Origin: Rhodoligotrophos sp. CJ14
GTDB lineage: Bacteria; Pseudomonadota; Alphaproteobacteria; Rhizobiales; Im1
Assembly: GCF_038811545.1 (NCBI RefSeq)
Contig: NZ_CP133319.1
Span: forward strand, 3,554,001 to 3,618,000
Length of the DNA: 64,000 nucleotides
Direction of reading: 5' to 3'
Under the pieces are notes generated by a model. The model did not search any database. It was not told the origin of the DNA and was given only the letters and a program-made list of their open reading frames with translations. Positions within the stretch are counted from its first letter, which is position 1, and each line of letters starts with the position of its first letter. Below are positions 14,676 to 57,724 of the stretch, piece by piece. Position numbers and translations under genes: made by a program.

Positions 14676-14893
14676 GCGCTTCACCGCCCTTCATCTGTGA
14701 CGCGCCAGGGTGCGGGCAATACGCCTCGATTGGCGAGGGTTGGTCGGGCAAGGCCGGCAGGCGCGGCCGGTGGTTCTGCGGCCCGCATTATCGCGAGCTG
14801 CAGGCCAGGCGCGCGGCCGATGAGGCCGCCCGGGCAACTGGGCAAACGAGATCAGCTCCGGCTGAAGTTCAAAGACGGCTCGAGGGGCTATGA
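14672..14893 (+). CDS. Small zinc-finger-like protein
   Basis: This 73-aa protein has Cys/His spacing FICDAPGCGQYASIGEGW ... WFCGPHYREL, a probable single zinc site, followed by a charged helix. It overlaps both the methyltransferase stop and the primase start as ATGA junctions. It may be a DNA-binding accessory protein; no specific function is recognised. Confidence 0.6.
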   Translation: MSASPPFICDAPGCGQYASIGEGWSGKAGRRGRWFCGPHYRELQARRAADEAARATGQTRSAPAEVQRRLEGL

Positions 14894-17643: not shown

Positions 17644-17658
17644 CATCGCCCGAATCTC

Positions 17659-20207: not shown

Positions 20208-22195
20208 CCATCCACATCACCAATGCGGAGCGCCTCGCCATGGAAGCCCTGGCGGAGGTGTTCACGCCGCCGCCGCCCGTCGACTTTCTCGGTTGGGCCG
20301 AGGACAATATCATCTTCTCCGAACGGGAGAGCCAATTCCCGGGTCCCTATAACCGCACGCTGTTTCCGTATTTCGACGAGATCCTCAGGGCACTCGGGCC
20401 GGATGACCCCTGCCGCTTCGTCACCCTAATCAAATCCGCCCAGATCGGCGGCACCGTGCTCGGCAATATCTTCGTTTGCGGCTCGATCGCGATGGACCCG
20501 GGCGACTTGCTCTATGTGCACCCGACCGAGGAAAATGCTCGGCGCTGGTCGAAGATGAAGCTGGCGCCCATGCTGCGGTCCAACACCGCGATTAGCGAGA
20601 TGTTCCCGCAGCGCTCGCGCGATGGCTCCGACTCGGTGATGTACAAGGAGCGTCGCGACGGCCGCGGCGCCATTCAGATCTCAGGCGCAAATTCGCCGGC
20701 AAGCCTCAGCCAGGTGACCATGCGCCGCCAAGTGCATGACGATCTTGCCAAATGGGAGATGAATGCGGCGGGCGACCCGGAGGTGCAAGCCGACAGCCGC
20801 TCGCGGAGTCACGAGTTTGCCAAGATCCTGAAGGTCTCGACCCCGCTCATCCTGCCGGGGTGCCGGATCACGAGAAGCTTCGAGGCGGGCAGCCAGGAAT
20901 ATCCTTATGTGCCGTGCCCGCATTGCGATCATATGCATGTGCTCGAATGGGAGAACATGCTCGCCAATCTGGACGAGGCGCATCCGGAGAATGCCTGTTT
21001 CACCTGTCCGGCTTGCGGCGCCGAGATCCTCGAGCATCATCGCCGCTCCATGCTGGCCGGGCTCCAATGGCGGGCACATAATCCGCAGGCGATGCGCGAG
21101 CATCGCTCGTTCTACATCTGGTCTGCCTATTCCTATCTTCAGTCTTGGGAACGGATTGCCCGCGAGTGGCTGAAGGCCAAGGGCGATCCGGCGTCCGAGC
21201 AGACCTTCCTCAATGACACCGTGGGCTTGGCGTACAAGGCGCAGGGCGAGTCCGTGTCATGGGAGACCATCCGCGATCGCGCCTCTGAAGCGGCATACGG
21301 GCGCGGGCAGATCCCGCGCGGTGCGCTGCTGATCACCATCGGCGTTGATTGCCAGCAGGATCGTGTCGAGTGGCAGGTGGTGGGCTGGGGGGCCGAGTTC
21401 CGCCGCTATGTCATTGAGTATGGCGTCTTTCCCGGTCACATCTCGGATGTGGAATGCCAGGACAAGCTCGACGGGCTGCTGGTGCAGACCTGGCCCAATG
21501 CCGCAGGTCAGCAGCTTGCCGCGGACCTCCTGGCCATCGACGGCAATGCCTGGACCGAGGATGTGTGGGGATGGGCGCGCAAGCACCCGGTCTCCAAGGT
21601 AATCATGGTCCGCGGCGTTGCCAGCGAGACCGCGCCGCGCATTCAGCGGGTCAAGAAGGAGCGCACCCGAAGCGGCAAGCTGCTGCGCTACTCCAAGCGG
21701 TTCTACAACTTCGGGACGAGCGTCATGAAGATGTCGCTCTACCGGGATCTCGGCAAAGAGGATCCGGGCGAGCGCGGCTATGTGGGTTTTCCGCGCGGGC
21801 TGGATGACGAGTATTTCCGGCAGCTCACAGCCGAGCGCCGCAAAGGTGTCCGGAACAAGGCCGGCTTCACCGTCTATCAGTGGGTGAAGGATCCGAACCA
21901 AGCCAATGAGGGGCTCGACACCATGCTGCAAGCGGAAGCTGCCGCCACCAAGCTTGGCGTGCGCAGCCTGCCCGATGCGGCCTGGGCAAAGCTCGAGGCT
22001 GAGCGGGAGACCCCGCCTGCCGACGCTCAGTTGGATTTCGAGGATCTGCCGATTGCCAAGGCCCCACTGTCCGCTCCCGCCAAACCGACAGAACGTGCCC
22101 CGGCCGCCGCCGCCGAGCCTGAGCTTCGGCCAACGGGAGTGCCTCTGCCCAGGCCGCAGCGCCGCGTGGTGCGGTCGGGATTCTTGGGGCGATAG
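20204..22195 (+). CDS. Terminase large subunit (lambda gpA family)
   Basis: This is the packaging motor ATPase and cos nuclease. It has the GpA-type Walker A region VTLIKSAQIGGTVLGN, a zinc pair (YVPCPHCDHMHVLEWEN ... CFTCPACGAEIL), and the nuclease-domain start LLITIGVDCQQDRVEWQVVG. The 663-aa length is typical of gpA. The C-terminal tail is Pro/Ala-rich and probably contacts the portal. The GTG start overlaps the small-subunit stop. A gpA-type enzyme implies cos-type packaging. Confidence 0.93.
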   Translation: MTIHITNAERLAMEALAEVFTPPPPVDFLGWAEDNIIFSERESQFPGPYNRTLFPYFDEILRALGPDDPCRFVTLIKSAQIGGTVLGNIFVCGSIAMDPGDLLYVHPTEENARRWSKMKLAPMLRSNTAISEMFPQRSRDGSDSVMYKERRDGRGAIQISGANSPASLSQVTMRRQVHDDLAKWEMNAAGDPEVQADSRSRSHEFAKILKVSTPLILPGCRITRSFEAGSQEYPYVPCPHCDHMHVLEWENMLANLDEAHPENACFTCPACGAEILEHHRRSMLAGLQWRAHNPQAMREHRSFYIWSAYSYLQSWERIAREWLKAKGDPASEQTFLNDTVGLAYKAQGESVSWETIRDRASEAAYGRGQIPRGALLITIGVDCQQDRVEWQVVGWGAEFRRYVIEYGVFPGHISDVECQDKLDGLLVQTWPNAAGQQLAADLLAIDGNAWTEDVWGWARKHPVSKVIMVRGVASETAPRIQRVKKERTRSGKLLRYSKRFYNFGTSVMKMSLYRDLGKEDPGERGYVGFPRGLDDEYFRQLTAERRKGVRNKAGFTVYQWVKDPNQANEGLDTMLQAEAAATKLGVRSLPDAAWAKLEAERETPPADAQLDFEDLPIAKAPLSAPAKPTERAPAAAAEPELRPTGVPLPRPQRRVVRSGFLGR

Positions 22196-22411: not shown

Positions 22412-24055
22412 ATGGGATTGTTCTCGCGCGTCGGTCGAGCCCCGGTCCAGACCGCGGTCCAGACCCCGGCCCGGACCGCGGTCCGAGCTGCGGCCCAGAC
22501 CGTGGCAAGGGTCGTGCCCAAAACCTTGGCCCGGGCGATCATGGCGCGCGCCTATCCGGGCTTTTCTGGTTATGAGGGGGCGAGCCAGTCACCGCGCATG
22601 GCGCGGTGGCTGGCGCCGAAGGCCGGCCCCAATGCACTTGCCCAGACGGGACTTGCCACGTTGCGCGACCGCTCGCGCGACATGGTGCGCAACAACGGTA
22701 TCGCCGACAGCGCCGTCGATACGATCGTCACGAACACCATCGGCACTGGCATCGTGCCGCAGTTCCAGACGCCTGATCCGGAGTTCAACCGCAAGCTGGC
22801 CGAGCTCTGGCTCGAATGGACGGACGAGGCGGACGCCGATGGTCGGCTCGACTTCTATGGCCTGCAGGCGCTCGCGGTCCGCTCCATGGTCGAGGCGGGA
22901 GAAGTTTTTGCCAGGCTGCGGACCCGCCGCATCGAGGATGGTCTGTCGGTGCCGTTCCAGGTGCAGCTCATCGAGAGCGAGTTCTGCCCGCTGAACAAGA
23001 ATGAGGACAGCGGCGCGAACAAGATCCGGGCCGGGATTGAGTTCGATCCGATTGGCCGCCGGCTGATGTACCATCTGTACCGCAGCCACCCGGATGATCT
23101 GACCTACGGCTATCTCGGCAACGTGCTCGAGATCGTGCCGGTCCCCGCTGCGGAGGTGGCGCATCTTGCGAGCATCCGCAGGCCCGGCATGGTCCGCGGT
23201 GAGCCGTGGCTCACGCGGGCGTTGGTCAAGCTGCATGACCTCGACAAATACGACGACGCCCAGCTCATGCGCCAGCAGCTGGCGGCGCTGTTCGCGGGCT
23301 TCGTCATTGAGGATATCCCGGAGGACTATGACGAGAACGAAGGGCCGCTTGGCAGCCCGGTTGATCCGGATGGCTATGCGGTCGAGCCGCTCGAGCCCGG
23401 CACGATGCAGCTACTGCCGCGCGGCAAGGATGTGAAGTTCAGCGAGCCGCCGGATCCGGGCAACTCCTATGTGGAGTTCATGCGCCAGCAGCTGCGCGCG
23501 ATCGCAGTGTCGGCCGGCGTGCTCTATGAGCAGCTCACCGGGGATTACAGCCAGGTCAATGACCGGACGTTCCGCGCCTCTGTCAATGAGTTCCGGCGGC
23601 GCTGCGCGATGTGGCAGCACGATCTTGTTGTCTTCCAGTTTTGCAGGCCGGTGGTTCGCCAATGGGCAACCCTCGGCATCCTTGCCGGCAAGATCGTCCC
23701 GCCCCGTGGCATCAACCTCGGCATGATTGCGCGGCCAAAATGGGTGCCGCAGGGCTGGGATTATATCAACCCGGTTCAGGACGTGCAGGCCCGCACCGCT
23801 GAGGTTCGCGCCGGTTTCCGCTCGCGGAGCGATGTGGTCTCCGAGCGCGGATACAATGTGGAGCAGGTCGACGAGGAGATCGCGGCAGACAATGCCCGGG
23901 CCGATCGCTTCGGCATCGTGCTCGACAGCGATCCGCGCAAGGGCAAGGCCGGCGGGCAGGCAGCGCCAGCATCACAAGCGGATCCCGGCGGATCTCAAGA
24001 GCCGGATGACCCGGCGGATTCCGACGATCCGCAGGATCCGGAAGACACCGAGTAA
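22412..24055 (+). CDS. Portal protein (lambda gpB family)
   Basis: This 547-aa protein forms the dodecameric DNA gate at one capsid vertex. It shows RDMVRNNGIADSAVDTIVTN, GTGIVPQFQ, VQLIESEFCPLN and GVLYEQLTGDYSQVNDRTFR, characteristic of lambda-family portals. Residues about 11-34 form a tetrapeptide repeat of VQTA/VQTP/ARTA type encoded by a 12-bp tandem repeat (22444-22503), which is not part of the usual family N terminus. The acidic C-terminal tail is Asp/Pro-rich. Confidence 0.92.
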   Translation: MGLFSRVGRAPVQTAVQTPARTAVRAAAQTVARVVPKTLARAIMARAYPGFSGYEGASQSPRMARWLAPKAGPNALAQTGLATLRDRSRDMVRNNGIADSAVDTIVTNTIGTGIVPQFQTPDPEFNRKLAELWLEWTDEADADGRLDFYGLQALAVRSMVEAGEVFARLRTRRIEDGLSVPFQVQLIESEFCPLNKNEDSGANKIRAGIEFDPIGRRLMYHLYRSHPDDLTYGYLGNVLEIVPVPAAEVAHLASIRRPGMVRGEPWLTRALVKLHDLDKYDDAQLMRQQLAALFAGFVIEDIPEDYDENEGPLGSPVDPDGYAVEPLEPGTMQLLPRGKDVKFSEPPDPGNSYVEFMRQQLRAIAVSAGVLYEQLTGDYSQVNDRTFRASVNEFRRRCAMWQHDLVVFQFCRPVVRQWATLGILAGKIVPPRGINLGMIARPKWVPQGWDYINPVQDVQARTAEVRAGFRSRSDVVSERGYNVEQVDEEIAADNARADRFGIVLDSDPRKGKAGGQAAPASQADPGGSQEPDDPADSDDPQDPEDTE

Positions 24056-25688: not shown

Positions 25689-26720
25689 ATGACGCCACTT
25701 GATCTCTTGAACGCACCGGAGTTCGCGGATCCCCGCTTGACCGAGGTGATCAACCTGCCGCCCTATCAGACGGGCCGCCCCGCGCAGCTCGGCATCTTCG
25801 CCGACACGCCGATCCCCACCACTTACGTCAAGCTCGGCATCGTCGATGGCGAGATCACCGTCATTCCCGCCAGGGAGCGTGGTGGTCCGGGCAACAAGAA
25901 CATGCGGAACAACCTCGCTGAGACGATGCTCACCATTCCGCATTTTCCGCTGGATGATGCCATCACCCCGTCCGATCTGCAGAACCTTACTGCCTATGGC
26001 ATGAACTACATCCTGCAGACGCTCGGCGGCGTCGTGAACCAGAAGATGCTCAGCCTCCGTCAGAAGCATGATGCCACCCATAATCAGCTGGATTGGGGCG
26101 CCCTGAAGGGCCAGGTGCAGGACGGCGAAGGCAAGGTTCTCGCTGATCTGTTCGATGCCTTCGATATCACTCAAACCACCGTGGCGTTTGCGCTCGCCAC
26201 CACCACAACCGATGTCGCGGCTAAGAACCGTGCAGTGAAGGCGGCCATTCGCAAAGAACTGCGCGGTGCGCCGTCAACTGGTGTCAGAGTGCTCGCCGGA
26301 GCGCAGTGGTTCGATGCCTATGTCAACCACCCCTCCGTCAAAGCCGCACTGAAGGATTACCGGGGGAACACGCCGGACCCGGGCCGTGACGACATCCAAG
26401 ACACATTCAGTTACGCGGGTGTGACCCTCGAGCGGATTGACGAGGAGTTCCAGTTCCGCAAACCCGATGGCACCTTCGAGGTGCAGCCCGCCGTTGATGC
26501 AGATGAGGCCATCGCGATCCCGCTCGGCACGCCCTACTTCAAGCGCTATATCGCGCCGCCGGACACCATCATGGATGCCAATATTGCGCCCAACCCGGCG
26601 AACAAGATCTTCGTCTCCACCGATGATCTGCCGCATGGCAAGGGGCGCGATATCCACACCGAGTCCAACGTCCTGCCGGTCTGCACCCGTCCCTCGCTGC
26701 TGATCCGCTTGACCATGTAA
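25689..26720 (+). CDS. Major capsid protein (gpE-like)
   Basis: This 343-aa protein has the family pattern: FADTPIPTTYVKLGIVDGEI, ERGGPGNKNMRNN, FPLDDAITPSDLQNL, VLAGAQWFDAYVNHPSVK and a C terminus with ESNVLPVCTRPSLLIRLTM. It follows gpD, as in lambda. A hairpin lies right after the stop codon. Confidence 0.93.
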   Translation: MTPLDLLNAPEFADPRLTEVINLPPYQTGRPAQLGIFADTPIPTTYVKLGIVDGEITVIPARERGGPGNKNMRNNLAETMLTIPHFPLDDAITPSDLQNLTAYGMNYILQTLGGVVNQKMLSLRQKHDATHNQLDWGALKGQVQDGEGKVLADLFDAFDITQTTVAFALATTTTDVAAKNRAVKAAIRKELRGAPSTGVRVLAGAQWFDAYVNHPSVKAALKDYRGNTPDPGRDDIQDTFSYAGVTLERIDEEFQFRKPDGTFEVQPAVDADEAIAIPLGTPYFKRYIAPPDTIMDANIAPNPANKIFVSTDDLPHGKGRDIHTESNVLPVCTRPSLLIRLTM

Positions 26721-46119: not shown

Positions 46120-46305
46120 ATGAACATGCGCATCTGCGCTGCCGTGGCACTCGCGGCGGCGATCGCCCTTCTTTGCCTGCCTCTGCTGGTGGCCACAGCA
46201 CCGGCTGCTCAGACCGGGCCTTTTGCAAGCCCGCCTTATCCACTTCCGCCGGAGTGGATTCAGCCGCGCCCTGTGATGGTGTTCGCGGCCTGCACCAATG
46301 CATGA
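46120..46305 (+). CDS. Small exported Pro-rich protein, possible outer spanin
   Basis: The 61-aa product has a signal-like start (MRICAAVALAAAIALLCLPL) and a short Pro-rich mature part (FASPPYPLPPEWIQPRP). A small Pro-rich exported peptide next to a coiled-coil membrane protein recalls the Rz/Rz1 spanin pair. A clear lipobox Cys is not visible, so this is tentative. TTGGAG precedes the ATG. Confidence 0.45.
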   Translation: MNMRICAAVALAAAIALLCLPLLVATAPAAQTGPFASPPYPLPPEWIQPRPVMVFAACTNA

Positions 46306-46312
46306 GGGGTCA

Positions 46313-47131
46313 ATGATGATCAATCGCGAAACCTTCTTCACCTATGTGCGCCGAGCGCCATTCGGCGGCAGGCTGACACAGCAGCAGGTCGATGGCCTCA
46401 ATGCCATGCTGGCGTTCTGGGAAGCCTGGCCCAAGGCTGTCGATCGCCGGCACCTCGCCTATATCCTTGCAACCGTGCATCACGAGACCGGCGGCCGATT
46501 TGCGCCCGTGCGCGAGGGCTTTGCCACGACCGATGCGGGAGCCCGCAAGGTGGTTGCCAAACGGGCCTATGGCAAGCCGCAGGCCAATGGCCATGTCTAT
46601 TACGGCCGCGGCTTCGTGCAGCTCACCTGGTTCCAAAACTACAAGAAGATGGGCGATCTGCTCGGGCTCGACCTTGCCGACAATCCAGACCTTGCCCTGG
46701 ATCTGCATGTCTCAACCGAGATCCTGTTCGAGGGCATGGCGCAGGGCCTGTTCACTGGCAAGAAGCTGTCGGACTATTTTAATGAGACTGCCGATGATCC
46801 GGTGAATGCCCGCCGGATTGTGAACGGCACCGATAAAGCCAGGCTGATCGCCGGCTATCACAGGAACTTCCTTGATGCGATCAAGGCGGCAGAGGCCATC
46901 GTGGCACCGCCCGATGTGAGCCCGCAAGCTGCTAAAGCTGATGGTCCGCCACTGGCGAAGGATAAGACCGTGTGGAGCGTGATCGGTGGTGCGGCGGCCT
47001 CGTTCTGCGCCGGCATCTTCGGGGCGATCAACAATCCCTATGCCTTTGGCGCCTTCGCGGTCGGCGCGGTCATGGCCGTTGGCCTCGCCATCTACTTCCG
47101 CAAGGAAATTCGTGAGCAGTTCGGAGGGTGA
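46313..47131 (+). CDS. GH19-type endolysin with C-terminal membrane segment
   Basis: Glycoside hydrolase family 19 lysozyme-like domain (residues about 1-195): AYILATVHHETGGRFAPVRE with the catalytic Glu in HHETGG, and YYGRGFVQLTWFQNYKKMG. The C terminus adds a hydrophobic segment (FGAFAVGAVMAVGLAIYF), then a basic tail, so the enzyme may be membrane-tethered. It cleaves peptidoglycan glycan strands at lysis. GAGGGG precedes the ATG at 46313. The 3-TM holin gene follows after 3 bp. Confidence 0.85.
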   Translation: MMINRETFFTYVRRAPFGGRLTQQQVDGLNAMLAFWEAWPKAVDRRHLAYILATVHHETGGRFAPVREGFATTDAGARKVVAKRAYGKPQANGHVYYGRGFVQLTWFQNYKKMGDLLGLDLADNPDLALDLHVSTEILFEGMAQGLFTGKKLSDYFNETADDPVNARRIVNGTDKARLIAGYHRNFLDAIKAAEAIVAPPDVSPQAAKADGPPLAKDKTVWSVIGGAAASFCAGIFGAINNPYAFGAFAVGAVMAVGLAIYFRKEIREQFGG

Positions 47132-47134
47132 TCC

Positions 47135-47518
47135 ATGTTCGCGATTGTCACCTGGCTCTTTGGCTGGCTGGCCAGTGGGCCGCTCGACCGCATTCTCAGC
47201 TCGATTGACCACAAGGTCGACAATGAAACCGAGCGCGAGAGGATAAAGACGGAGGTCGTCGCGGAATATCTGAAGGCTCAGGCTGCCATCAGTACCGGCC
47301 GAGGCTGGTGGTTTCCTCTGCTGTTCCTGGTGCCGGCAGGCCTGTGGTTTGCCTCGGTGTGCGTCTATTCGATCCTTTGGTGTCGAGGATGCATATATCC
47401 GCAGAGCTGGTCTATCGCCGCGCTTCCGCCGCCCCTGGATGAATGGATGGGAGCGATAGTGGCCTCGCTGTTCATTGGGAAGATTGGGGGTGAGCTCGTT
47501 GCTAGGCTGAAGCGATGA
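47135..47518 (+). CDS. Holin of the 3-TM family
   Basis: This 127-aa protein has an N-terminal helix (FAIVTWLFGWLASGPLDRIL), a cytoplasmic-like charged section, two central hydrophobic stretches (WFPLLFLVPAGLWFASVCVY), the WCRGCIYPQSW motif and PPPLDEWMGAIVASLFIGKI. It matches the alphaproteobacterial 3-TM holin family. It forms the inner-membrane pores that release the endolysin. Confidence 0.8.
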   Translation: MFAIVTWLFGWLASGPLDRILSSIDHKVDNETERERIKTEVVAEYLKAQAAISTGRGWWFPLLFLVPAGLWFASVCVYSILWCRGCIYPQSWSIAALPPPLDEWMGAIVASLFIGKIGGELVARLKR

Positions 47519-47547: not shown

Positions 47548-47997
47548 TCATGGATAGCTTTCAAATACCTCCGTAGAGCCATCCTTCCGCAGAAGTAGAA
47601 CGTCATAGGCCTCGGCACCCTCGGCAGCACTCATTCCGGGTGAACCAAAAGGCATATCAGGAACCACAAGACCGATCGCATCTGGGCGCTCGGCGAGCAA
47701 ACGCGATACCTCGCGTGCCGGGACATGACCTTCGATCACATAACCCTCTACTAATCCGGTATGGCAGGAAGTTAAGCCGGTTCGCAGTCCGAGCCGCATC
47801 TTTCGCTCCCAGAGATCGCCGAATGCCAAATTCTTCACATCGGTCACATACTGGTTCTCCTCGAGATGATGCGCCCAACCAAGGCAGCACCCACATCCGG
47901 AGGTCGATAGGATCTCCACCCTTGGCCCCCCGAGGGCAATTCCTGAAGACATAAGCAGGGCAGCTCCCGCTATCGCGCTTCTGCCAGTTGGTCTCAT
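47548..47997 (-). CDS. DUF411 metal-binding periplasmic protein
   Basis: DUF411 proteins are periplasmic and usually sit in copper or silver resistance loci. After a signal peptide (SAIAGAALLMSSGIALG), the mature part has STSGCGCCLGWAHHLEENQY with the Cys cluster, LTSCHTGLVEGYVIEGHVPA, and VVPDMPFGSPGM. ATG 47997 is preferred to an upstream in-frame Met. It is the last gene of the leftward metal cluster and converges on the holin. Confidence 0.82.
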   Translation of the reverse strand: MRPTGRSAIAGAALLMSSGIALGGPRVEILSTSGCGCCLGWAHHLEENQYVTDVKNLAFGDLWERKMRLGLRTGLTSCHTGLVEGYVIEGHVPAREVSRLLAERPDAIGLVVPDMPFGSPGMSAAEGAEAYDVLLLRKDGSTEVFESYP

Positions 47998-48104
47998 CCG
48001 CTTCCCTTTGAGTGTGCTCCGCAGCCCAGACACGGCATAGCTCTAGCTCGCCCGCAGCTCGTGGATCGCCTTCCTGCGGCGTCTGCTTCTTTTTGGTTCC
48101 TCAG

Positions 48105-48632
48105 TCACTGCGGCGTTTTGTTGGGTTTCTCATTTTGAATTTCGCGATCGCCGTGCTGTTCCACCCAGGCAACGAGCTTGGCGATTTCGCGCTCTTGAGT
48201 GGCTATTGTTTCTTCCGCCATCCTTCGGGATTCTTCGTTATCGGCTCCGAGCAAGCCGGCGCGTGCCATATCGATAGCCCCTTGGTGGTGAGGGATCATT
48301 GCGCAAATCCATGCCACGTCCGCATCTTTGGCCATCATGCCCGACATCATCGGCTTGTTCATTCGCATCATAGCTTCGTGAAGACCTTTCTGAGTGTCGT
48401 TCAATTGGCTCATCATGTCTTGGTGCATATCGCTTTCCATTATTTGGGACATGCGGGTATGCATATCTTGCATCTTCTGCATCATGTCAGGTTGATTGCT
48501 CGCCCGACTAGCGGACTTGCAGGCCGCCGGAAGCTCCACGGCGGTTGCCTTGGCGGTATCATTCTCCTGCGCCCCTGCCGGAGCTGAGGAAAGTACCGCT
48601 GTCATCATCACGAGCGTTGCGACCATCTTCAT
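48105..48632 (-). CDS. DUF305 (CopM-like) periplasmic copper protein
   Basis: The 175-aa product has a signal peptide (MVATLVMMTAVLSSAPAGA region) and a Met-rich DUF305 domain: MMQKMQDMHTRMSQIMES, MNKPMMSGMMAKDADVAW and the signature MIPHHQGAIDMARAGLLG. CopM in cyanobacteria binds Cu(I) in the periplasm. The large number of Met and the His pair support copper binding. About 130 bp of non-coding DNA separates it from the CusF-like gene. Confidence 0.82.
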   Translation of the reverse strand: MKMVATLVMMTAVLSSAPAGAQENDTAKATAVELPAACKSASRASNQPDMMQKMQDMHTRMSQIMESDMHQDMMSQLNDTQKGLHEAMMRMNKPMMSGMMAKDADVAWICAMIPHHQGAIDMARAGLLGADNEESRRMAEETIATQEREIAKLVAWVEQHGDREIQNEKPNKTPQ

Positions 48633-48765
48633 GATTTGCCTCCCAATCGAGAGTGGATGCTCCGATCATTCAGCCTCAATGCGTCAAGGTCTGCTTTGGT
48701 GCTGATTGTGAGCCATCACGGATAGGAGATCAGGCGGCATTAGCCGCACTGATCTCACAGGTCTG

Positions 48766-49050
48766 CTATTTCGAACCCTGGATGGAAACGACTGTCAATG
48801 CGCCGTTCACGCGAGCTGCTTCAAACTTCACCTTCTGACCGACCTTCACCGATTTCAGCATTTGCGGGTCTTTGACCCGAAAAACCATTGTCATCGAGTC
48901 CATCTCAAGATTTGGGATGGGATCGTGCCGCAACGTAATTTTTCCAGCACTGGTGTCGATCTTCTTTACCTCGCCATTCACCTGAGCGCCCTGGGCAAGT
49001 GCGATCGAGGACATCAAGGTTAGCATGAGTGCGCTTAGGATTGTCTTCAT
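48766..49050 (-). CDS. CusF-like periplasmic copper-binding protein
   Basis: This 94-aa protein has a signal peptide (ILSALMLTLMSSIALAQ) and one OB-fold CusF domain (VNGEVKKIDTSAGKITLRHD, LEMDSMTMVFRVKDP). Those His and Met residues are the Cu(I)/Ag(I) ligands in CusF. It probably hands copper to the efflux pathway. It is in the same orientation as the cupredoxin, 21 bp from its stop. Confidence 0.87.
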   Translation of the reverse strand: MKTILSALMLTLMSSIALAQGAQVNGEVKKIDTSAGKITLRHDPIPNLEMDSMTMVFRVKDPQMLKSVKVGQKVKFEAARVNGALTVVSIQGSK

Positions 49051-49071
49051 CTGGATCTCCTATCGATGGGT

Positions 49072-49548
49072 CTATTTCACTACAATGGTCCCGTACATGC
49101 CGGACTCGCGGTGACCAGGAATCAGGCAGGAGAAGTCGAAGGTACCTGCCTGGGTGAACTTCCAAACGATCTCCCCGTTTTCCCCCGGCTTCAGCCGCTT
49201 TGCGTTTGGATCGTCATGTTCCATGTCCGGGTTCTTCTGCATTTCGATGGCGTGCTTGAGGTTGTCCTCGACGGTGGCGACCACAAATTCGTGCTCGAGC
49301 TCACCGATGTTTTTGAGAACAAACCTGACTTGCTCGCCTCGTTTGATCGAAATTTTGCTCGGCTCAAATGTCATCCGACCGTCGTCGGCCTCTTTCATCC
49401 GCACCGTTAGGGTCTTGGCGGGCTTGGACGGATCGCCGGGCTCACCGTAGACCCGCGCCTCCTCATGACTATGGCCGGCGTCCGCCAGTGCTGGTACGGC
49501 CAGTCCCGACATAAGCGCGCCGATGATGAATGCCGTGTTCGTTCTCAT
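49072..49548 (-). CDS. Plastocyanin-like cupredoxin
   Basis: The 158-aa exported blue-copper-fold protein has signal peptide AFIIGALMSGLAVPALADA. The fold shows FVLKNIGELEHEFVVAT with the first His, and the C-terminal copper loop SCLIPGHRESGMYGTIVV containing Cys, His and Met. A central insert DPNAKRLKPGENG is present. It may shuttle copper or electrons to the multicopper oxidase encoded next to it. GAGCC precedes the ATG. Confidence 0.86.
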   Translation of the reverse strand: MRTNTAFIIGALMSGLAVPALADAGHSHEEARVYGEPGDPSKPAKTLTVRMKEADDGRMTFEPSKISIKRGEQVRFVLKNIGELEHEFVVATVEDNLKHAIEMQKNPDMEHDDPNAKRLKPGENGEIVWKFTQAGTFDFSCLIPGHRESGMYGTIVVK

Positions 49549-49563
49549 CTTGAGGCTCCCATC

Positions 49564-50955
49564 TTAATGGTTTGAATGATCGTTCTTAGGCTTGACGACC
49601 CTAAACTGCGCAGGCTGCTTACCCGCCTCATGCTGTTGCGGCGCCGACGCAGCCGTTTCCGGTTGGCCGGTCCATTCGAAAGCAACAGTTCCCTTCGGGT
49701 GTTCGTACCAGCCCGGATCCTTGTAGTCGTTTGACGCCAATCCCTTTCGCACCTTCACGACAGAAAACATACCGCCCATTTCGATGGCGCCGAACTGGCC
49801 AAAGCCAGTCATCATGGGCAGCGTGTTATCCGGAAGCGGCATCTCCATTTCACCCATATCGGCCATGCCCGCAGTGCCCATAGGCATGTACTCCGGCGTT
49901 ATGCTCTTGATTTTTTTTGCAACCGACTTCTTGTTCACGCCGATCCAGGTGTTCAGCTCATGGCCCATTGCGTTCATGGTGTGATGGGACTTATGGCAAT
50001 GGATCGCCCAATCGCCAGGCTCACTTGCAACGAAGTCGAAGGCGCGCATCTGGCCAACCGCGCAGTCGATCGTCACCTCAGGCCAAGCCGCACCCTCAGG
50101 AACCCAGCCGCCGTCGGTGCACGATACCTTGAAGTCGTAGCCATGCATGTGAATGGGGTGGTTCGTCATCGTAAGATTGCCAAACCGGATTCTGACCTTG
50201 TCGCCTTGTGCACAGACCAGGTGATCGATCCCAGGAAACACTCGGCTGTTCCACGTCCAAAGATTGAAGTCGGTCATTTCGGCGACCCGCGGCACGTAAG
50301 AGCCTGGTTCAATATCGTAGGCGGCCATGAGAAACACGAAATCCCGGTCAACTCGCCTGAATGCCGGGTCACGTGGGTGGACTACAAAAAAGCCCATCAT
50401 TCCCATTGCCATCTGCACCATTTCGTCAGCGTGAGGGTGGTACATAAACGTCCCACTCTTGCGGAGCACAAACTCATAGACGAAGGTTTGGCCTGGCTTG
50501 ATATGTGGTTGCGTCAGACCTCCCACGCCGTCCATCCCGCTTGGCAGTAGCTGGCCATGCCAGTGAATCGTAGTGTGTTCAGGGAGCTTGTTAGTGACGA
50601 AGATGCGTACCTTATCTCCTTCGACCGCTTCGATGGTCGGGCCGGGAGATTGGCCGTTGTAGCCCCACAAATGTGCCACCATGCCCGGCGCGAGCTCGCG
50701 GACGACTGGCTCTGCAACCAGGTGAAACTCCTTCCAATCCCCGTTCATACGCCAGGGCAGCGTCCAGCCGTTGAGGGTGACCACCGGCTGGTAGTCCGGG
50801 CCGGTCTTTGGATGAAGAGGTGGCTGCATAACGGACTCTCTCATGATCGGAGCCTCAGGTATGCTTGCCGCCTGAAGGCGAGTTGAGATAGCAGATGCGC
50901 CTATGAGGGTTGCTGCGCCCGAAGCGCTCAGAAAGTTTCGTCGTGAGAAGTTCAT
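49564..50955 (-). CDS. Multicopper oxidase (CopA/CueO type)
   Basis: The 463-aa enzyme is exported by Tat (SRRNFLSASGAATLIG). It oxidises Cu(I) to the less toxic Cu(II) in the periplasm. All four copper motifs are visible: IHWHGQLLPSGMDG, MYHPHADEMVQMAMG, NHPIHMHGYDFK and IHCHKSHHTMNAMGHELN. It is shorter than classical CopA (about 600 aa) and lacks its long Met-rich repeats, though the Met content near the C terminus is high. It is the core of the metal operon. Confidence 0.93.
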   Translation of the reverse strand: MNFSRRNFLSASGAATLIGASAISTRLQAASIPEAPIMRESVMQPPLHPKTGPDYQPVVTLNGWTLPWRMNGDWKEFHLVAEPVVRELAPGMVAHLWGYNGQSPGPTIEAVEGDKVRIFVTNKLPEHTTIHWHGQLLPSGMDGVGGLTQPHIKPGQTFVYEFVLRKSGTFMYHPHADEMVQMAMGMMGFFVVHPRDPAFRRVDRDFVFLMAAYDIEPGSYVPRVAEMTDFNLWTWNSRVFPGIDHLVCAQGDKVRIRFGNLTMTNHPIHMHGYDFKVSCTDGGWVPEGAAWPEVTIDCAVGQMRAFDFVASEPGDWAIHCHKSHHTMNAMGHELNTWIGVNKKSVAKKIKSITPEYMPMGTAGMADMGEMEMPLPDNTLPMMTGFGQFGAIEMGGMFSVVKVRKGLASNDYKDPGWYEHPKGTVAFEWTGQPETAASAPQQHEAGKQPAQFRVVKPKNDHSNH

Positions 50956-50969
50956 GGGGATATTCTTCC

Positions 50970-52424
50970 CTATTCGGAGCTTTCGGCCGAAACGGCGATC
51001 GTGGGAGCCTCCTCGGCGCCGCCGGACTCACTGCCGCCAATCAAGACGGCTTCGAATTGACTTTGCGCGACAAAGAAATCGCGCGCTGCTTCAACAGCAG
51101 CCACATTGCTTTCAATGCTTTCACGCAGCGTTGTTAGAAGTTCTATGACGTCTATCAACATGCCGTTGTATTCAAGGATAGATTGGTCATCTATTGTCTT
51201 TCGCAATGGAAGGATCTTATTGCGATACTGCCGGGCTATTTCGAAGCTGGCGCGGTAGGTGGCATAGGCGGAGCGGACCTCGGACCTGGCATTCACGGCC
51301 CTTTCCGCCAGTCTGTTTACGGCCTGCATGTAAGTCTCGGCCGCTCGCCGGGTCTTTGTTTCGCCGAGATCAAAGATTGGAATTTCCAGCGCCAGTTCGA
51401 AACCTTTAGGCGACGCCTTCTCCTTGTCGCCTTCTTCCGTTGTTTCGTGCTCGTGCGCAAAGATGCCCGCTAGTTCGGCCATCGATACGAACCGAGTTGC
51501 CTGGGTCAGCCCAAGAGACTTTGCGAGAGCGGCAAGCCTGATCCGCCCTTCTACAAGATCCACTCTGTTCCGTATGGCGTCGGCTTCGACTTGCAGTGGT
51601 GTGCGCAGCCGAGCTGGGAGCTTCGGCAAACTGGATGGCAGCTTAAAATTCGAATCGCCGCCCCACAGACCCAGAAGCCGGATGAGCTCTTCACGCTTGA
51701 CAGTGGCTTGCAGGCGGGCTTGGGCAAGTTGGGTCGAGAGCTCGGCGTAAAACGCGCTGGCCCGGGCCTGGGCAAGGGTCGTCGCCGCACCCGTTTCACC
51801 CAGCTTGATGGTGAGCTCGGCGGCCGCGTCGGCCGACGTTCTCGCCCGTTCTAAAAGGCTTACGAGCTGGCGAGCCGCTACAGCTTCATAGAATGCCTTA
51901 CGGGTTTCGGTTGCCAGCCGGAAGGTCGCTCCGATCGCGCGATACTTAGCCGCCTCGAACTCCCTGCGCGCAATCTCCTTACGGCTTGGCAAAGTGAGTA
52001 GCGCCAACAGGTTTCCGATGATCCGTCGCTCTATATCGAGCGCGTTGGCGGAAGCAATACGTTCTAAGGAGAACACAGGATTAGGAGGCAAGCTGGCTTC
52101 TACATAGGCAACTTCCGATAGGCCGAGCTCATTGTATTCAGCCTGAAGACCACGGTTGTTCAGAAGCGCGATTTGCACTGCGGAACTTGCTGAAAGAGGT
52201 CTCGTGAGAAGCTGGTCCACGCGCGCCTGAGCGGATCGAGCTGTCTGTTCCGAGCTGATCTTTCTGGCCTCACCACCGATCGTTGCGGAAATACGAGTGG
52301 CCACCGGCCCCATGCCGGCATCCGGCGAAAAGCTAGCACAACCCGTCAACATAAGGGCGATGCCCGGGCCGACGAAAGTTGCGAATGTATAGTGGCGATA
52401 TCTGCCTGAGCCGGGGAGGTTCAT
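50970..52424 (-). CDS. Outer-membrane efflux lipoprotein (TolC/CusC type)
   Basis: The 484-aa product has a lipoprotein signal with lipobox LTGCASF. The two TolC-like repeats show LLNNRGLQAEYNELGLSEVA, LPPNPVFSLERIAS and LALEIPIFDLGETKTRRAAE, long coiled helices around short strands. It forms the outer-membrane channel of an efflux system, but no RND or membrane-fusion partner is in the window. The start overlaps the upstream lipoprotein stop as ATGA. Confidence 0.85.
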   Translation of the reverse strand: MNLPGSGRYRHYTFATFVGPGIALMLTGCASFSPDAGMGPVATRISATIGGEARKISSEQTARSAQARVDQLLTRPLSASSAVQIALLNNRGLQAEYNELGLSEVAYVEASLPPNPVFSLERIASANALDIERRIIGNLLALLTLPSRKEIARREFEAAKYRAIGATFRLATETRKAFYEAVAARQLVSLLERARTSADAAAELTIKLGETGAATTLAQARASAFYAELSTQLAQARLQATVKREELIRLLGLWGGDSNFKLPSSLPKLPARLRTPLQVEADAIRNRVDLVEGRIRLAALAKSLGLTQATRFVSMAELAGIFAHEHETTEEGDKEKASPKGFELALEIPIFDLGETKTRRAAETYMQAVNRLAERAVNARSEVRSAYATYRASFEIARQYRNKILPLRKTIDDQSILEYNGMLIDVIELLTTLRESIESNVAAVEAARDFFVAQSQFEAVLIGGSESGGAEEAPTIAVSAESSE

Positions 52425-52642
52425 TGGCTCGCTCCCGATCTCGGAGCCACTTGTTCATTCTGTTCTTGCCACGGCCGAGGCGTGACGGGCTTGTAGTCCT
52501 CTGTCCCCGCAAACACTGCTGGCGCGGTTACTGGAGGGACCGGTACGGCTGGATCGCTAGGGTCTGCTCCCGGAATTATCCTTGGGGGTTCGGCACATGC
52601 GGATAGTAAAGCGGCAATAACCGCCAGAATCGACACTCTCAT
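52421..52642 (-). CDS. Small lipoprotein, metal cluster
   Basis: The 73-aa product has signal VSILAVIAALLSACAEPP with the lipobox Cys, then a Pro-rich mature tail (DPAVPVPPVTAPAVF). It is coupled to the efflux lipoprotein gene. Its small size and lack of domain leave the role unknown, perhaps envelope anchoring for the pump. Confidence 0.65.
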   Translation of the reverse strand: MRVSILAVIAALLSACAEPPRIIPGADPSDPAVPVPPVTAPAVFAGTEDYKPVTPRPWQEQNEQVAPRSGASQ

Positions 52643-52771
52643 CGGTCAAGCTCGATCGCCTTCGAGAAGCCTTCCGGCTCTCGTTATGGGAAAGGGTGGA
52701 CAGCAACGATCACCCGCGCAAATTCTGGGCGACAATGCGAATCTTACGGGCTGACCGAGTGTGCGAAACGC

Positions 52772-53218
52772 TTACACTCGTCGGGAATCAGCCCGATTAA
52801 CCCTGCCGCTTTCAGGCGGTCTCTCAACGCGATTTCCAAACTGGGTGGGAAGAAAGTTGCTGGTATCGAGAATGTGGCGCTGGATACTCACCATGCCCAG
52901 CTGCAATTCCGCAGGCGCGCCCGCGACCAGCGTCATTTGACATGTAAATGAGCAGCAGGAGCTGTCTTGCGTCAAATGATTGTCGTGATGAGTTTCATCA
53001 CATGAGGCAGGATCCATGAAAAATTCAGCCTCAGACCACGCATGGCCAGCCCTTGCCACCTGGCCGCAACTTTCACGGTTGTGACTGACGATATGACCGG
53101 CGCCGTGATGACTTGCACCATTGACGGGCGCGTGCGCGGACGCCGGCAGTGCCACGCTCGAAAGCATGCACAGCATAGTCAGCATCGTGAGTAACGCGCG
53201 CCGCAGGTTACAAATCAT
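52772..53218 (-). CDS. Exported Cys/His-rich protein, probably metal-related
   Basis: The 148-aa product starts at ATG 53218 with a signal (LLTMLTMLCMLSSVALPASA). The mature part is rich in His and Cys (NGASHHGAGHIVSHNRESCG, DETHHDNHLTQDSSCCSFTC). It resembles small copper-locus exported proteins in style; no family is named. About 130 bp of DNA with no gene separates it from the lipoprotein gene, possibly the promoter of that operon. Confidence 0.6.
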   Translation of the reverse strand: MICNLRRALLTMLTMLCMLSSVALPASAHAPVNGASHHGAGHIVSHNRESCGQVARAGHAWSEAEFFMDPASCDETHHDNHLTQDSSCCSFTCQMTLVAGAPAELQLGMVSIQRHILDTSNFLPTQFGNRVERPPESGRVNRADSRRV

Positions 53219-53314
53219 GAATCTGAGGATACACAAACTTATTTGGTAAGCCAATCACTTCGACGAAATGAGCAGAGATCCGAGGGCCGCGCTCTACGGC
53301 CCATGCCTCGGGAT

Positions 53315-53800
53315 TCAGTCGAGCCGAGCCCGGATCGCCTCCATTTTATCAATCTCCCCTCGTTGGCCATGTGAAATATCTCGGCAGAGGTCGATGAGCT
53401 CCCGATCTGTGAGAGTGGCTTCCCGACACATCAGAATTGCGCCGGAGTGGTGCGGAATCATGGACTCGATGAAGCGTCGATCGTTGATTAGTGCCTGCGT
53501 ACGGGTTCCAGCAAAAGCCGCAATGAAGAGCACCGCGAGCCCTAGGCAAAGAGCTAGATTTAGGCCCTTGTTCTTGTACATCCCGCTCATAGTCGCGAGC
53601 ATGATGATCCCCATGGGGGCCACCATGGTGAGGGCCATATAGAACATGTTCAGGTTGTTCCGAAAGTCGACCCAGCTATCGATCATTGAGAACATGACAA
53701 AATACATGACTACGAGGCTGAGCAACATGTTGAGGAAGAACATCCAATAGTGATGACCAAGTGCATTCCTGTGCATGATGGAATCTTCATGATCTTTCAT
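53315..53800 (-). CDS. Membrane DUF305 protein
   Basis: The 161-aa product has three hydrophobic segments (YWMFFLNMLLSLVVMYFVMF; LTMVAPMGIIMLATMSGM; LALCLGLAVLFIAAFAG) and a C-terminal DUF305-like motif (FIESMIPHHSGAILMCREAT). Such proteins accompany copper and heavy-metal islands. It is the second DUF305 protein of the cluster. The N terminus is His-rich (MHRNALGHHYW). Confidence 0.78.
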   Translation of the reverse strand: MKDHEDSIMHRNALGHHYWMFFLNMLLSLVVMYFVMFSMIDSWVDFRNNLNMFYMALTMVAPMGIIMLATMSGMYKNKGLNLALCLGLAVLFIAAFAGTRTQALINDRRFIESMIPHHSGAILMCREATLTDRELIDLCRDISHGQRGEIDKMEAIRARLD

Positions 53801-54063
53801 AAACCATATCCCTTTGATGACCCGTCCTGCAGCCGGCGCCAGAGCTTGTTAAACTCTAGACAGTGCTTTCTTGTTGCTGAACAGCTGATTGTCGAGCGCC
53901 AGAGCGTTTCGCGGGGCCCGGTCGGATCTCCATTCAAGCAGGGGTGGCGCCCGAGAGGCGGTTTTCGAGGTCGTGTTAGCCGCTATCTGGCCATGGAGCC
54001 CCGGTTGTCTCGTGCTTCACGATGTCACCCTCTCCGATCTCAAAGAGGAGGGCCGTCCTTAAG

Positions 54064-54331
54064 TCAAATCACGAGCTCGGTCATCAGCAGTTCGCCGATG
54101 CAGCCGCCGAACAGCAGCAGTCCACCAAGGCGACAATGTAGACGTTGGCGATCCGGTCGCTGCGGAGGCTGTGTTCTACCGCTGGATGACCGGGTGAGCA
54201 ATGGTTGCGATCGCGTCGTCCGGGATGAACCTCAACTGCCCCGCTGCGACGACGAGCACGGAAAGGGCCAGGCCACGGTCGGCCGGGGATGTCCCCGGCC
54301 GACCCATCGCTGCTGGTGAGCAATTGGGCAT
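54064..54331 (-). pseudogene. Frameshifted small membrane protein gene
   Basis: A frame begins at ATG 54331 (MPNCSPAAMGRPGTSPADRG) and has LALSVLVVAAGQLRFIPDDA, ending early at 54176. Continuation appears in a second frame (AVEHSLRSDRIANVYIVAL) and then a third (GGLLLFGGCIGELLMTELVI) to a stop at 54064. Reading all three pieces gives a plausible two-helix membrane protein of about 88 aa broken by two indels. It starts 24 bp after the glutaredoxin-MauE gene, in the same direction. The 263 bp between it and the DUF305 gene contain nothing I can support. Confidence 0.5.
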
Positions 54332-54354
54332 GTGAACTCCGTGGAATGTGCGGC

Positions 54355-55149
54355 CTACATCGGGTGAGCCGCGCTGGGTGCAAGGCCGAAAGCCGCGAGC
54401 GCCATCCAGGCCGCCATGGCTATCATCATCAGGTTCTCGGTTAGGGAGACGAAGCCGAGCGGCACGTTGCTCGATCCGCCGACGCAGGCGCACTTGAGTT
54501 CGCGCTTGTCGATGTAGACGGCCTTGAAGACCGACACGGCACCCACCGTGCCGATAAACAGCGCTACGGGGACTGACAGCCATGTCAGCACACCGGCCAC
54601 CATCAGCACGCCCGCGAAGCCCTCTGCAAAGGGGTAGACGTAGCTGTAAGGCACCCACCGTTTCGCCAGCAGGTCGTAGTTCAGGAACATTGTCGCGAAG
54701 CTCTCGACGTTCTGGAGCTTCAACAGCGCCAGTACGACCATCGAAAAGCCGATGAACCACTCCGCCGCGCGAATTGTGAACACGCTACCGGTGACGGAGT
54801 AACTCGCCGCCAGAGCCATCAGCGCGGTCATCGCAAACAGCACGGCTACCGGACGATAGCTGGTCGCCTTCGGGTCCACGACGGGCTTGCCCAGGAACCT
54901 GCGAAGGTCGTCGTAGCCGCCAACGCGCTCGCCGCCGATGAAGGTTTGGGGCGTGGTCGCAACGCCGTGCTGCGCCTTGAAGGCGTCCGTCTCCTCGCGG
55001 GTGGTGAGGTGGTGGTCCTCGACCTCATAGCCGGACCGCCGCAAGAGGTCCTTGGCCTTAAGGCCGTATGGGCAGGTGTGATCGGGCATCACCATCCGGT
55101 GGAGGACCGCCTTCCTGTCGTCTGATTTGTGACTCGCCGTAACCGACAT
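54355..55149 (-). CDS. Glutaredoxin-MauE/DoxX-like membrane fusion protein
   Basis: The 264-aa product from ATG 55149 has an N-terminal glutaredoxin (about 10-85): MVMPDHTCPYGLKAKDLLRR, with CPYG in place of CPYC (a monothiol site), TTPQTFIGGERVGGYDDLRR. A four-helix MauE/DoxX-type domain follows (about 95-255) with a CAC motif (KRELKCACVGGSSNVPLGFV). Such fusions are seen beside MerR-type regulators in metal islands and may handle thiol-bound metal. It is divergently transcribed from the MerR-like gene. Confidence 0.78.
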   Translation of the reverse strand: MSVTASHKSDDRKAVLHRMVMPDHTCPYGLKAKDLLRRSGYEVEDHHLTTREETDAFKAQHGVATTPQTFIGGERVGGYDDLRRFLGKPVVDPKATSYRPVAVLFAMTALMALAASYSVTGSVFTIRAAEWFIGFSMVVLALLKLQNVESFATMFLNYDLLAKRWVPYSYVYPFAEGFAGVLMVAGVLTWLSVPVALFIGTVGAVSVFKAVYIDKRELKCACVGGSSNVPLGFVSLTENLMMIAMAAWMALAAFGLAPSAAHPM

Positions 55150-55189
55150 TATCACGTCTCCATCTTGTCGTTGTGATCTCGTCGGCAGT

Positions 55190-55221
55190 GATATAGGGTC
55201 TGTACCATGGTACAGAGTCAA
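55190..55221 (-). promoter_or_regulatory. MerR-type promoter/operator for the glutaredoxin-MauE gene
   Basis: On the minus strand, TTGACT (55221-55216), a 20-bp spacer and TATATC (55195-55190). The spacer contains the perfect palindrome CTGTACCATGGTACAG (55200-55215). The over-long spacer centred on a dyad is the hallmark of MerR-activated promoters. The ATG of the MerR-like gene lies inside the palindrome. Confidence 0.75.
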
Positions 55222-55611
55222 GAGGTTGAATCGCTCACGATCGGCGGGCTTGCTGCTGCCGGAGGCGTAGGCGTCGAAACGATCCGGTTCTACCAGCGCA
55301 ATGGCCTGATTCAGACACCAACGCGCGAAAAGGGTGTCCGTCGCTACGGCCGGGAGGACGTGCGCCGGCTCCGGTTCATCAGGCAAGCACAAACAGCAGG
55401 TTTCACGCTAGCGGAGATCAGAGAGCTTCTGGCGCTGGATGCGAGCGAAGACCGCAGCCGCGCAAGGGAACTTGCCAAGGGGCGCATCGAAGCTCTGGAT
55501 GCCAAGATCCTTGAGCTCCAGCGCGCCCGCGACTCGTTGAGGCGGCTGGCGGATGAGTGTGCGGAAGGAAGCACCGGGCGATGCCCAATCCTGACTTCTT
55601 TTGATTTATGA
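55207..55611 (+). CDS. MerR-family metal-responsive regulator
   Basis: The 134-aa product aligns well with mercury MerR: LTIGGLAAAGGVGVETIRFY, QRNGLI, RRYGREDVRRLRFIRQAQTA and GFTLAEIRELLALD. The coiled dimer helix is followed by the metal loop ECAEGSTGRCPILTSF, which keeps equivalents of Cys117 and Cys126. The position of Cys82 is Ser/Ala (DASEDRS), so one canonical mercury ligand is missing. No mer genes are nearby. It probably senses a thiophilic metal and controls the divergent operon. Confidence 0.85.
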   Translation: MVQSQEVESLTIGGLAAAGGVGVETIRFYQRNGLIQTPTREKGVRRYGREDVRRLRFIRQAQTAGFTLAEIRELLALDASEDRSRARELAKGRIEALDAKILELQRARDSLRRLADECAEGSTGRCPILTSFDL

Positions 55612-55823
55612 TCCATCGTATCCCGTTTGGCGACATGAAGCCGGGCCGGCTCCGATGAGGGTGTGTAAGCAAATTAGGTGTCGTGAACGAACCTGGAACA
55701 TATTTCGGGACTTATTGCGCGGAAATCCCCGAAGTCGCCGCGAGTTTACCGGTTTGTTCCGATAGGCTGACCCGACAGCCCTGGGCGATTGGCTGGAGAA
55801 GGCTTGGTTTTCTGGCGATTTTT

Positions 55824-55880
55824 TGGAGCGGGCGATCGGGATAGAACCGACGACATTCAGCTTGGGAAGCTGACGTTCTA
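55824..55880 (-). pseudogene. tRNA-Gly(CCC) 3' fragment
   Basis: On the minus strand a tRNA-like tail of about 57 nt runs from the D-loop end (TAGAAC) through the anticodon arm CAGCTTCCCAAGCTG (CCC) and T-arm to CGCCCGCTCCA. The 5' acceptor and most of the D arm are absent, and the T-loop is TTCTATC instead of TTCGATC. It looks like an old attachment-site remnant. It lies in a 357-bp gap (55612-55968) that otherwise shows nothing I can support. Confidence 0.75.
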
Positions 55881-55971
55881 TCGAGCCGCGAGGCGTCGAG
55901 CGCGCGGCGCTGCGATTGACTTGCTATGGTGTCGACCGTAGTCCTTTGGATCCTTAGAGAGGGAGCGCGTG

Positions 55972-57567
55972 ATGAGCGACGTCACCAATGAGTTATCAAG
56001 AATTTTGCAGTCCAACGGCGGCGCTCCCTTTTTATTCGTGGGCTCGGGATTCTCGAGAAGATATCTTGGGTCAGATGATTGGAAGGGTCTGCTTCGTCGG
56101 TTCTGCGCAGAAATTCGCGAGTTTGATTACTACTTTGCATCGACCGATGGCGATCTGCCAATGACAGCATCATTAATTGCCAGGGACTTTCATGACCTTT
56201 GGTGGAACTCAGCTAAATACGAAGAATCCAGAGAGAAATTCAGAGAAACGTCGACGAGCGTCCAGTCTGCGCTAAAGAATGAGATCGCTCAGTTTTTATC
56301 TCAACTTCCCTTAGAGGGTTTGCCCGATGAGCAAATTCAAAGAGAGATATCTGCATTAAAGAATTTGAACGTGGACGGAATAATAACGACCAATTGGGAT
56401 CTGCTTCTCGAAGAATTATTTCCAGGTTACCGAGTTTTCATAGGGCAGGAAGAGTTATTATTTTCAAACCCGCAAGCGATAGCAGAAATCTATAAAATCC
56501 ATGGTTGCGCAAGCAGGCCGAAATCTTTGATTTTAACCAGTGAAGATTACCATGACTTCCATGAGAAAAACCCATATTTAGCAGCAAAGCTAATAACGTT
56601 ATTTATTGAACATCCAATTATTTTTATAGGATACGCTGTGCAGGATCCGCATATTCAGAGGATAATATTTTCAATTGCCTCGTGTTTGGCTAACGATAAG
56701 TTGGAAAAATTTTGCGAGAACCTGGTGTTCGTTAGGAGGTCGCACGGGCGATCAAGTTCGATTCAGAAGATTACCTTTAGCCACGCCGGACGAAGCGTGA
56801 CTGCTACCGTGCTGGAAGTGGACGATTTCTGTGAGGTGTATGCGGCAATTGACGCTGGCAAGCGGAAAATACCGGCGCGAATCCTGAGATACTGTAAGGA
56901 ACAGATGTATGAACTAGTTAAATCCGCTGAGCCAGAGAAAAAGATCGCCGTTGTAGATATCGACGAGTTGGATGCAAGCGAGCAGGTCGAATTTGTTGTG
57001 GGAATTGGGCTGGCGAAAAATCATCGCCAGCAACAGAGTGAGATCGCGTCAGAAGGTCAAAGCAACTTGGCTCGAAGCGGTTACAGAGGGGTTTCAATTG
57101 CCGATTTGTTTGATGATTTGCCCCGGGAAAGATCCACGTTTGACGCTGACGAGTTGCTAAGGGTTGCGTTCCCCTCATTTGCCCGTTCGAATGCCACATA
57201 CATCCCAGTGTTCAGATATCTTCGTGCAGCCGGAGTCGATGATAGCGAGAAGCTGGTCTGCTCTGAGTATAAGGATGCAGCCAGGGTCATAGAAAAGATC
57301 AAGAAGAGGGGATATCGCGTAAGAGGCTACAGATCGCAATATAACTCAAATTGGAGCGATAAAACCACCACGGATATCCTGTCAGGGCTTGATCCAGAAA
57401 GGGTAACGCTCATTCTACCTTTCCAGTCACCTATGAAAGTAGAGAGAGAGCCTCTCAGAAAATTTTTGTTGGAAAATTCTGGGTCATCATTTCGAGATCC
57501 GTATAGATCCTATTATAAAAAGCTAGCGTGCTATTATGATTATTTAGCGTTTGGCTTTGAATTATGA
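55972..57567 (+). CDS. SIR2-domain protein, candidate anti-phage effector
   Basis: This is a 531-aa protein (from ATG 55972; GTG 55969 possible). Residues about 15-235 form a SIR2-like NAD-binding fold: FLFVGSGFSRRYLGSDDW, the catalytic Asn in IITTNWDLLLEEL, the catalytic His in IYKIHGCASRPKSLIL, and IIFIGYAVQDPHIQRI. The C-terminal 290 residues match no family I know. Related SIR2 effectors (Thoeris ThsA, DSR, others) degrade NAD+ to abort infection. It stands alone at the element's right end and is clearly more A/T-rich than neighbours. GAGGGAG precedes the start. Confidence 0.8.
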   Translation: MSDVTNELSRILQSNGGAPFLFVGSGFSRRYLGSDDWKGLLRRFCAEIREFDYYFASTDGDLPMTASLIARDFHDLWWNSAKYEESREKFRETSTSVQSALKNEIAQFLSQLPLEGLPDEQIQREISALKNLNVDGIITTNWDLLLEELFPGYRVFIGQEELLFSNPQAIAEIYKIHGCASRPKSLILTSEDYHDFHEKNPYLAAKLITLFIEHPIIFIGYAVQDPHIQRIIFSIASCLANDKLEKFCENLVFVRRSHGRSSSIQKITFSHAGRSVTATVLEVDDFCEVYAAIDAGKRKIPARILRYCKEQMYELVKSAEPEKKIAVVDIDELDASEQVEFVVGIGLAKNHRQQQSEIASEGQSNLARSGYRGVSIADLFDDLPRERSTFDADELLRVAFPSFARSNATYIPVFRYLRAAGVDDSEKLVCSEYKDAARVIEKIKKRGYRVRGYRSQYNSNWSDKTTTDILSGLDPERVTLILPFQSPMKVEREPLRKFLLENSGSSFRDPYRSYYKKLACYYDYLAFGFEL

Positions 57568-57695
57568 TCCTCGAGCCTAGGGGGCGTCTGTCCAAGTGGT
57601 ACCCAGCATATTCTGTGTCGTGCCCGCTCGAGTAACTCACGCTACCAGGTGCAAGAAAAAGGCCGGTTCCACTTGCGGGGAGGATGTACGAAACG

Positions 57696-57724
57696 CTCCT
57701 CCGCTACCACCTGCCTCCCCGCAA
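57696..57724 (+). repeat. attR: right copy of the 29-bp direct repeat
   Basis: Exact copy of 7037-7065, including the tRNA-Met 3' end and CCA. It is flanked by the inverted arms CTTGCGGGGAGG (57672-57683) and CCTCCCCGCAAG (57714-57725), symmetrical about position 57698.5. The 128 bp between the SIR2 stop and this repeat hold no gene. Confidence 0.9.

Follow-up and report, generated by a model that had tools for sequence, protein, structure and literature searches.

A copper operon carried as putative cargo between the attachment sites of a serine-integrase prophage in Rhodoligotrophos sp. CJ14

The window analysed here (64,000 bp, bases 3,554,001-3,618,000 of a single-contig genome of 4.81 Mb) very probably (about 80%, by our own estimate) holds a temperate tailed phage (50,659 bp) that used a large serine integrase to insert at the 3' end of a tRNA-Met gene and that bears ~10 kb of lysogenic-conversion cargo, i.e., a copper operon, a unit of MerR and glutaredoxin-MauE, and a SIR2 candidate defence gene, the whole of which would be excised and packaged and would raise copper tolerance. 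In this scheme, the serine integrase would excise the entire 50.7-kb element and the cargo would be packaged together with the phage genome. In the lysogen, the multicopper oxidase would oxidise periplasmic Cu(I), the CusF, cupredoxin, DUF305 and DUF411 proteins would buffer copper, and the outer-membrane channel would aid its export, the expected outcome being a higher copper tolerance. If packaged, the phage could carry this tolerance from host to host. The nearest phage and plasmid relatives of the window come from Rhizobiales-type bacteria, and all features are collected in Table 1.

Table 1. Features of the prophage and its cargo (positions in the window)
Feature	Position	Strand	Evidence or remark
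tRNA-Met(CAT), intact, attachment target	6974-7050	+	ARAGORN, Rfam
Large serine integrase	7029-8714	-	PF00239/PF07508/PF13408; phrog_95
attL core, 29 bp, the 3' end of tRNA-Met	7037-7065	+	exact repeat
Repressor-like HTH protein	11788-12561	-	74% identity in G001 sister prophage
Phage late genes, whole block	19488-47518	+	Pfam/PHROG; colinear with G001 prophage over 11.8-46 kb
Terminase small	19488-20207	+	
Terminase large	20204-22195	+	
Portal	22412-24055	+	
Capsid E	25689-26720	+	
Endolysin GH19	46298-47131	+	
Putative holin	47135-47518	+	PHROG only
DUF411 metal-binding protein	47548-48033	-	PF04214
DUF305/CopM-like metallochaperone	48105-48632	-	PF03713; NF049983 below cutoff
CusF-type periplasmic copper chaperone	48766-49050	-	PF11604
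Cupredoxin similar to CopI	49072-49548	-	PF00127; NF051440/NF047895 below cutoff
CopA-like multicopper oxidase	49564-50955	-	PF07732/PF07731; conserved His/Cys copper ligands
Outer-membrane efflux protein	50970-52424	-	PF02321
Small lipoprotein, first gene of operon	52421-52642	-	beside 12/12 homologous operons
His/Cys-rich hypothetical protein	52772-53254	-	without Pfam match
Membrane DUF305 protein (second DUF305)	53315-53800	-	PF03713
Glutaredoxin-MauE membrane protein	54355-55392	-	PF07291/PF00462
Perfect palindrome TCTGTACCATGGTACAGA, probable MerR operator	55199-55216	.	core kept in G001
MerR-family regulator, divergent from MauE gene	55207-55611	+	PF13411/PF09278
3' fragment of tRNA-Gly(CCC)	55819-55880	-	remnant att sequence from a different element
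SIR2-domain protein, candidate defence family PDC-S25	55969-57567	+	inside the att sites
Cargo-side (phage) half of attP, RR1-A-like	57673-57695	.	comparison with RR1-A attP
attR core, 29 bp	57696-57724	+	exact repeat

The element is delimited by attL and attR, whose 29-bp repeat is exact and far above chance, and it has a palindromic attP, as is typical of serine-integrase prophages. When the 44-bp attP of the free Rhizobium phage RR1-A was compared with the whole window on both strands, attR was the best match (32/44), followed by attL (28), while no other position exceeded 24; with the RR1-A half-site alone, the cargo-side flank of attR still ranked first, but only just (16/22 against 15 for the next). 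Indeed, the inverted arms at attR lie 30 nt apart with the left arm on the cargo side, and those of the RR1-A attP, which overlap the end of its integrase gene, show the same spacing. Apart from attR itself, no attL-like sequence (at least 16/20) was detected at 46.5-58.2 kb, no internal attR was found near 47.5 kb, and a search for transposon ends around the cargo gave nothing beyond inverted repeats at chance level, the attP arms excepted. Given the lack of an internal att site, the tRNA-Met target of this integrase family and the RR1-A attP match, the right end of the phage itself seems to lie at 57,695, which places the copper genes inside, as the first-pass annotation had proposed from the repeats. 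With an RR1-A-like attP half-site on its cargo side, the element is likely to excise in its entirety. Note that no empty attB was found in relatives, whose tRNA-Met genes lie in rearranged or occupied surroundings.

The integrase contains the resolvase, recombinase and zinc-ribbon domains of its family, and its reading frame runs through the att core and stops, in antisense, inside tRNA-Met. This arrangement is shared by its homologues: tRNA-Met adjoins the integrase in 20 of the 29 loci scanned (L213-L241), and in all 20 the integrase frame ends within the tRNA, at the identical tRNA position in 18, with C-terminal tails such as VAEEGLEPPTRGL. Since the frame crosses the att core, integration would swap the C-terminal tail of the enzyme, with predicted lengths of 561 aa in the integrated form and 578 aa in the circular form.

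Terminase, portal, capsid, tail and lysis genes are all present, as expected of a temperate tailed prophage, the tail genes also falling within the late block, and none of the core genes examined is truncated, their lengths matching those of their counterparts in the prophage of a sister species of the same genus (G001, contig C3). The view of an intact-looking phage whose head, tail and lysis genes adjoin the cargo is thus borne out. There is indeed an open reading frame just before the cargo where a holin had been named, but the name is a guess, since this frame matches only a PHROG of unknown function. Within the prophage, a 925-aa frame on the minus strand (14869-17646) lies opposite a 917-aa frame on the plus strand (14890-17643), and colinearity with plus-strand frames in G001 suggests that the plus strand carries the real gene.

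The sister prophage is colinear with ours at ~70-77% nucleotide identity, but it has a tyrosine integrase instead of the large serine integrase, different lysis genes followed by genes unrelated to the window, and no copper operon. Its att sites were looked for and not found. In the same contig (locus L028), a 24-nt piece of tRNA-Met lies ~60 kb from the tRNA-Met gene and may mark where an old element ended. A length of 50.7 kb is plausible for packaging, since the genomes of phages with related capsids measure 50-53 kb, although the sister prophage spans only ~37 kb from integrase to lysis genes and the range of this capsid is accordingly uncertain. The capsid used as a single-protein query gave no match against the genome and viral contigs; an alignment query recovered capsid relatives and, weak tail-tip matches excepted, no further phage of the same tail type.

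Pfam and NCBIfam searches confirmed the DUF411, both DUF305, CusF, cupredoxin, multicopper oxidase, efflux and MerR proteins at the places first assigned to them. The small lipoprotein, absent from the earlier list, precedes the efflux gene in all 12 homologous operons examined. The multicopper oxidase passes the Pfam cutoffs and keeps the HWH, HPH, HPIHMHG and HCHKSHH ligand motifs. However, it scores 157 bits where the CopA-type family TIGR01480 requires 479, and the cupredoxin scores 106 bits against a CopI cutoff of 280, so that both should be regarded as relatives rather than members of these families. With 126 bits, the oxidase is the only strong match of this type in the genome, the other matches to this domain, near 2.73 Mb, scoring much lower (56 and 30 bits). 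The lipoprotein-OEP-MCO-CopI-CusF order was identical in the 12 genome loci examined, in which DUF305, DUF411 and MauE are optional, and the oxidase occurs in 92 of 397 genomes of the host's order; on these two counts, the most plausible reading of the copper operon is that the phage picked up an ordinary operon of its hosts. The claim of a complete metal-resistance locus was overstated: the cargo contains no copper P-type ATPase, RND pump or CopRS-type two-component regulator, the usual pump partners are missing, and the operon would therefore depend on host systems.

The rest of the cargo seems to have come from several sources. The MerR regulator and the glutaredoxin-MauE protein (whose true start is probably near 55150) are present and divergent as first described; they nevertheless form a separate transferable pair, apart from the copper operon. 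Indeed, the pair recurs in G001 (81% nucleotide identity), where it sits outside the prophage, and in G297 and G335, at 80-85% overall and with other families included; the palindrome TCTGTACCATGGTACAGA that precedes MerR has a near-identical copy in G001. The regulator departs from Hg-type MerR in that Arg occupies the Cys82 position, while the C-terminal Cys pair is kept; Ser77 of CueR appears to be replaced too. Between MerR and SIR2, inside the att sites, lies a sequence missed at first reading, a 62-bp fragment comprising 57 nt of the 3' part of tRNA-Gly(CCC), with one mismatch, and a few A's. It may be a scar left by another element, or else an attP that this phage lineage used until its integrase was exchanged. 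The SIR2 gene, also missed, has a low GC content and adjoins attR, and its scan of viral contigs gave no match. A composite origin also agrees with the GC content, which is ~60-65% for much of the phage, drops to 54-58% across most of the copper genes and reaches 44-50% near SIR2. Taken together, the cargo is a composite, and the tRNA-Gly fragment points both to a further integrative element as a contributor and to past rearrangement.

Two other readings assign the copper genes to a different element. The prophage could end near 47.5 kb, the copper genes then forming an older island at the same tRNA-Met with 57696 as the island's attR. Tandem accretion at tRNA sites is common, a further integrase of this family is found at the tRNA-Met of one relative (G002), and the GC drop sets in past 47.5 kb, all of which speak for such an island. 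However, an attL-like sequence near 47.5 kb is lacking, the cargo ORFs tested include no second integrase, and the cargo-side flank of the right repeat resembles the attP half-site of this very integrase family; the island reading was tested and fails on the att search and the attP match, and we hold it to be highly improbable. Alternatively, a nested tRNA-Gly-type element with its own ends, which may move separately, brought the copper genes into the prophage, an option suggested by the tRNA-Gly fragment. This fragment is nevertheless single-copy in the window, its orientation would place the corresponding element to the right, towards SIR2 and off the copper genes, and the cargo ORFs tested yielded neither a second recombinase nor a transposase, so that a nested origin is very unlikely and a relic attP or recombination scar fits the fragment better. 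The fragment indicates a contribution by another element, but no second end of a nested element was found. The statement that no transposase lies beside the copper genes holds for all cargo ORFs tested with Pfam, among which neither transposase, second recombinase or integrase nor relaxase or conjugation genes occur, unlike what would be expected of a composite transposon or an ICE copper island.

It is also conceivable, though on balance unlikely, that the prophage is defective and no longer packaged, its cargo being a fixed chromosomal copper operon, which would be compatible with the boundaries mapped here. The single close relative, that of G001, would agree with such decay; the full-length core genes and the intact integrase, att sites and tRNA argue against it.

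Compared with known systems, the window is one more case of metal genes on a phage. In soil prophages, metal-resistance genes were reported by homology in 8.9%, with copper among the commonest (PMC13343844). The Streptococcus suis phage phi-SsuSSJ28_rum (MN270276) carries cadmium-resistance genes, a copper-operon repressor, a multicopper oxidase and a copper P-type ATPase after its holin and endolysin. It is, however, an unrelated Gram-positive phage whose metal genes come after a second integrase/recombinase pair, whereas the window has a different gene set, of the alphaproteobacterial OEP-MCO-CopI-CusF type and without an adjoining recombinase. The rarity of such loci on phages, as first asserted, is thus only relative, since many genomes of the order carry the operon and copper genes have been recorded on phages before. 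In the 12 operons of the host's order, the oxidase shares 78-83% amino acid identity with ours, and the oxidase region on plasmids of Rhizobium and Mesorhizobium shares ~75-77% nucleotide identity; in contrast to these chromosomal and plasmid operons, which were compared for order and identity only, the operon of the window lies between lysis genes and attP. Among ~50,700 phage records searched with the oxidase, every match was below 60% identity and none was close. MCO, CopI and CusF relatives also occur together on each of two phage contigs from IMG/VR whose structural genes are unrelated (IMGVR_UViG_3300046000_011764 and IMGVR_UViG_3300017645_000158), one of which has OEP as well, but the phage ends of both contigs are unmapped and the relatives could belong to host flanks; the efflux-protein scan of viral contigs gave no match. 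As a separate observation, a 633-aa frame fusing DUF4396 and a multicopper oxidase (L096:2692-4593) adjoins MCO, CopI and CusF relatives on a phage contig. A broader and doubtful hypothesis is that OEP-MCO-CopI-CusF may recur as cargo in alphaproteobacterial siphophages unrelated to one another, which would have gained it 3' of their tail and lysis genes and retained it through att-site swaps (as the tRNA-Gly relic might record), copper stress selecting lysogens and virions spreading tolerance.

Another close system is the free phage RR1-A (53.1 kb, GenBank record), whose capsid is 63% identical to that of the window and which shares the attP geometry and a serine integrase of 50% identity; its record annotates contractile-tail genes and, among the features of the first 50 kb, no copper genes. 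Altogether, phage-borne copper genes are already known and the operon content is ordinary, the notable part being the well-supported boundaries. Here, the limits of a metal-carrying prophage are backed by an attP half-site match, beyond the repeat alone, and phage transfer of copper tolerance thereby becomes directly testable in one strain.
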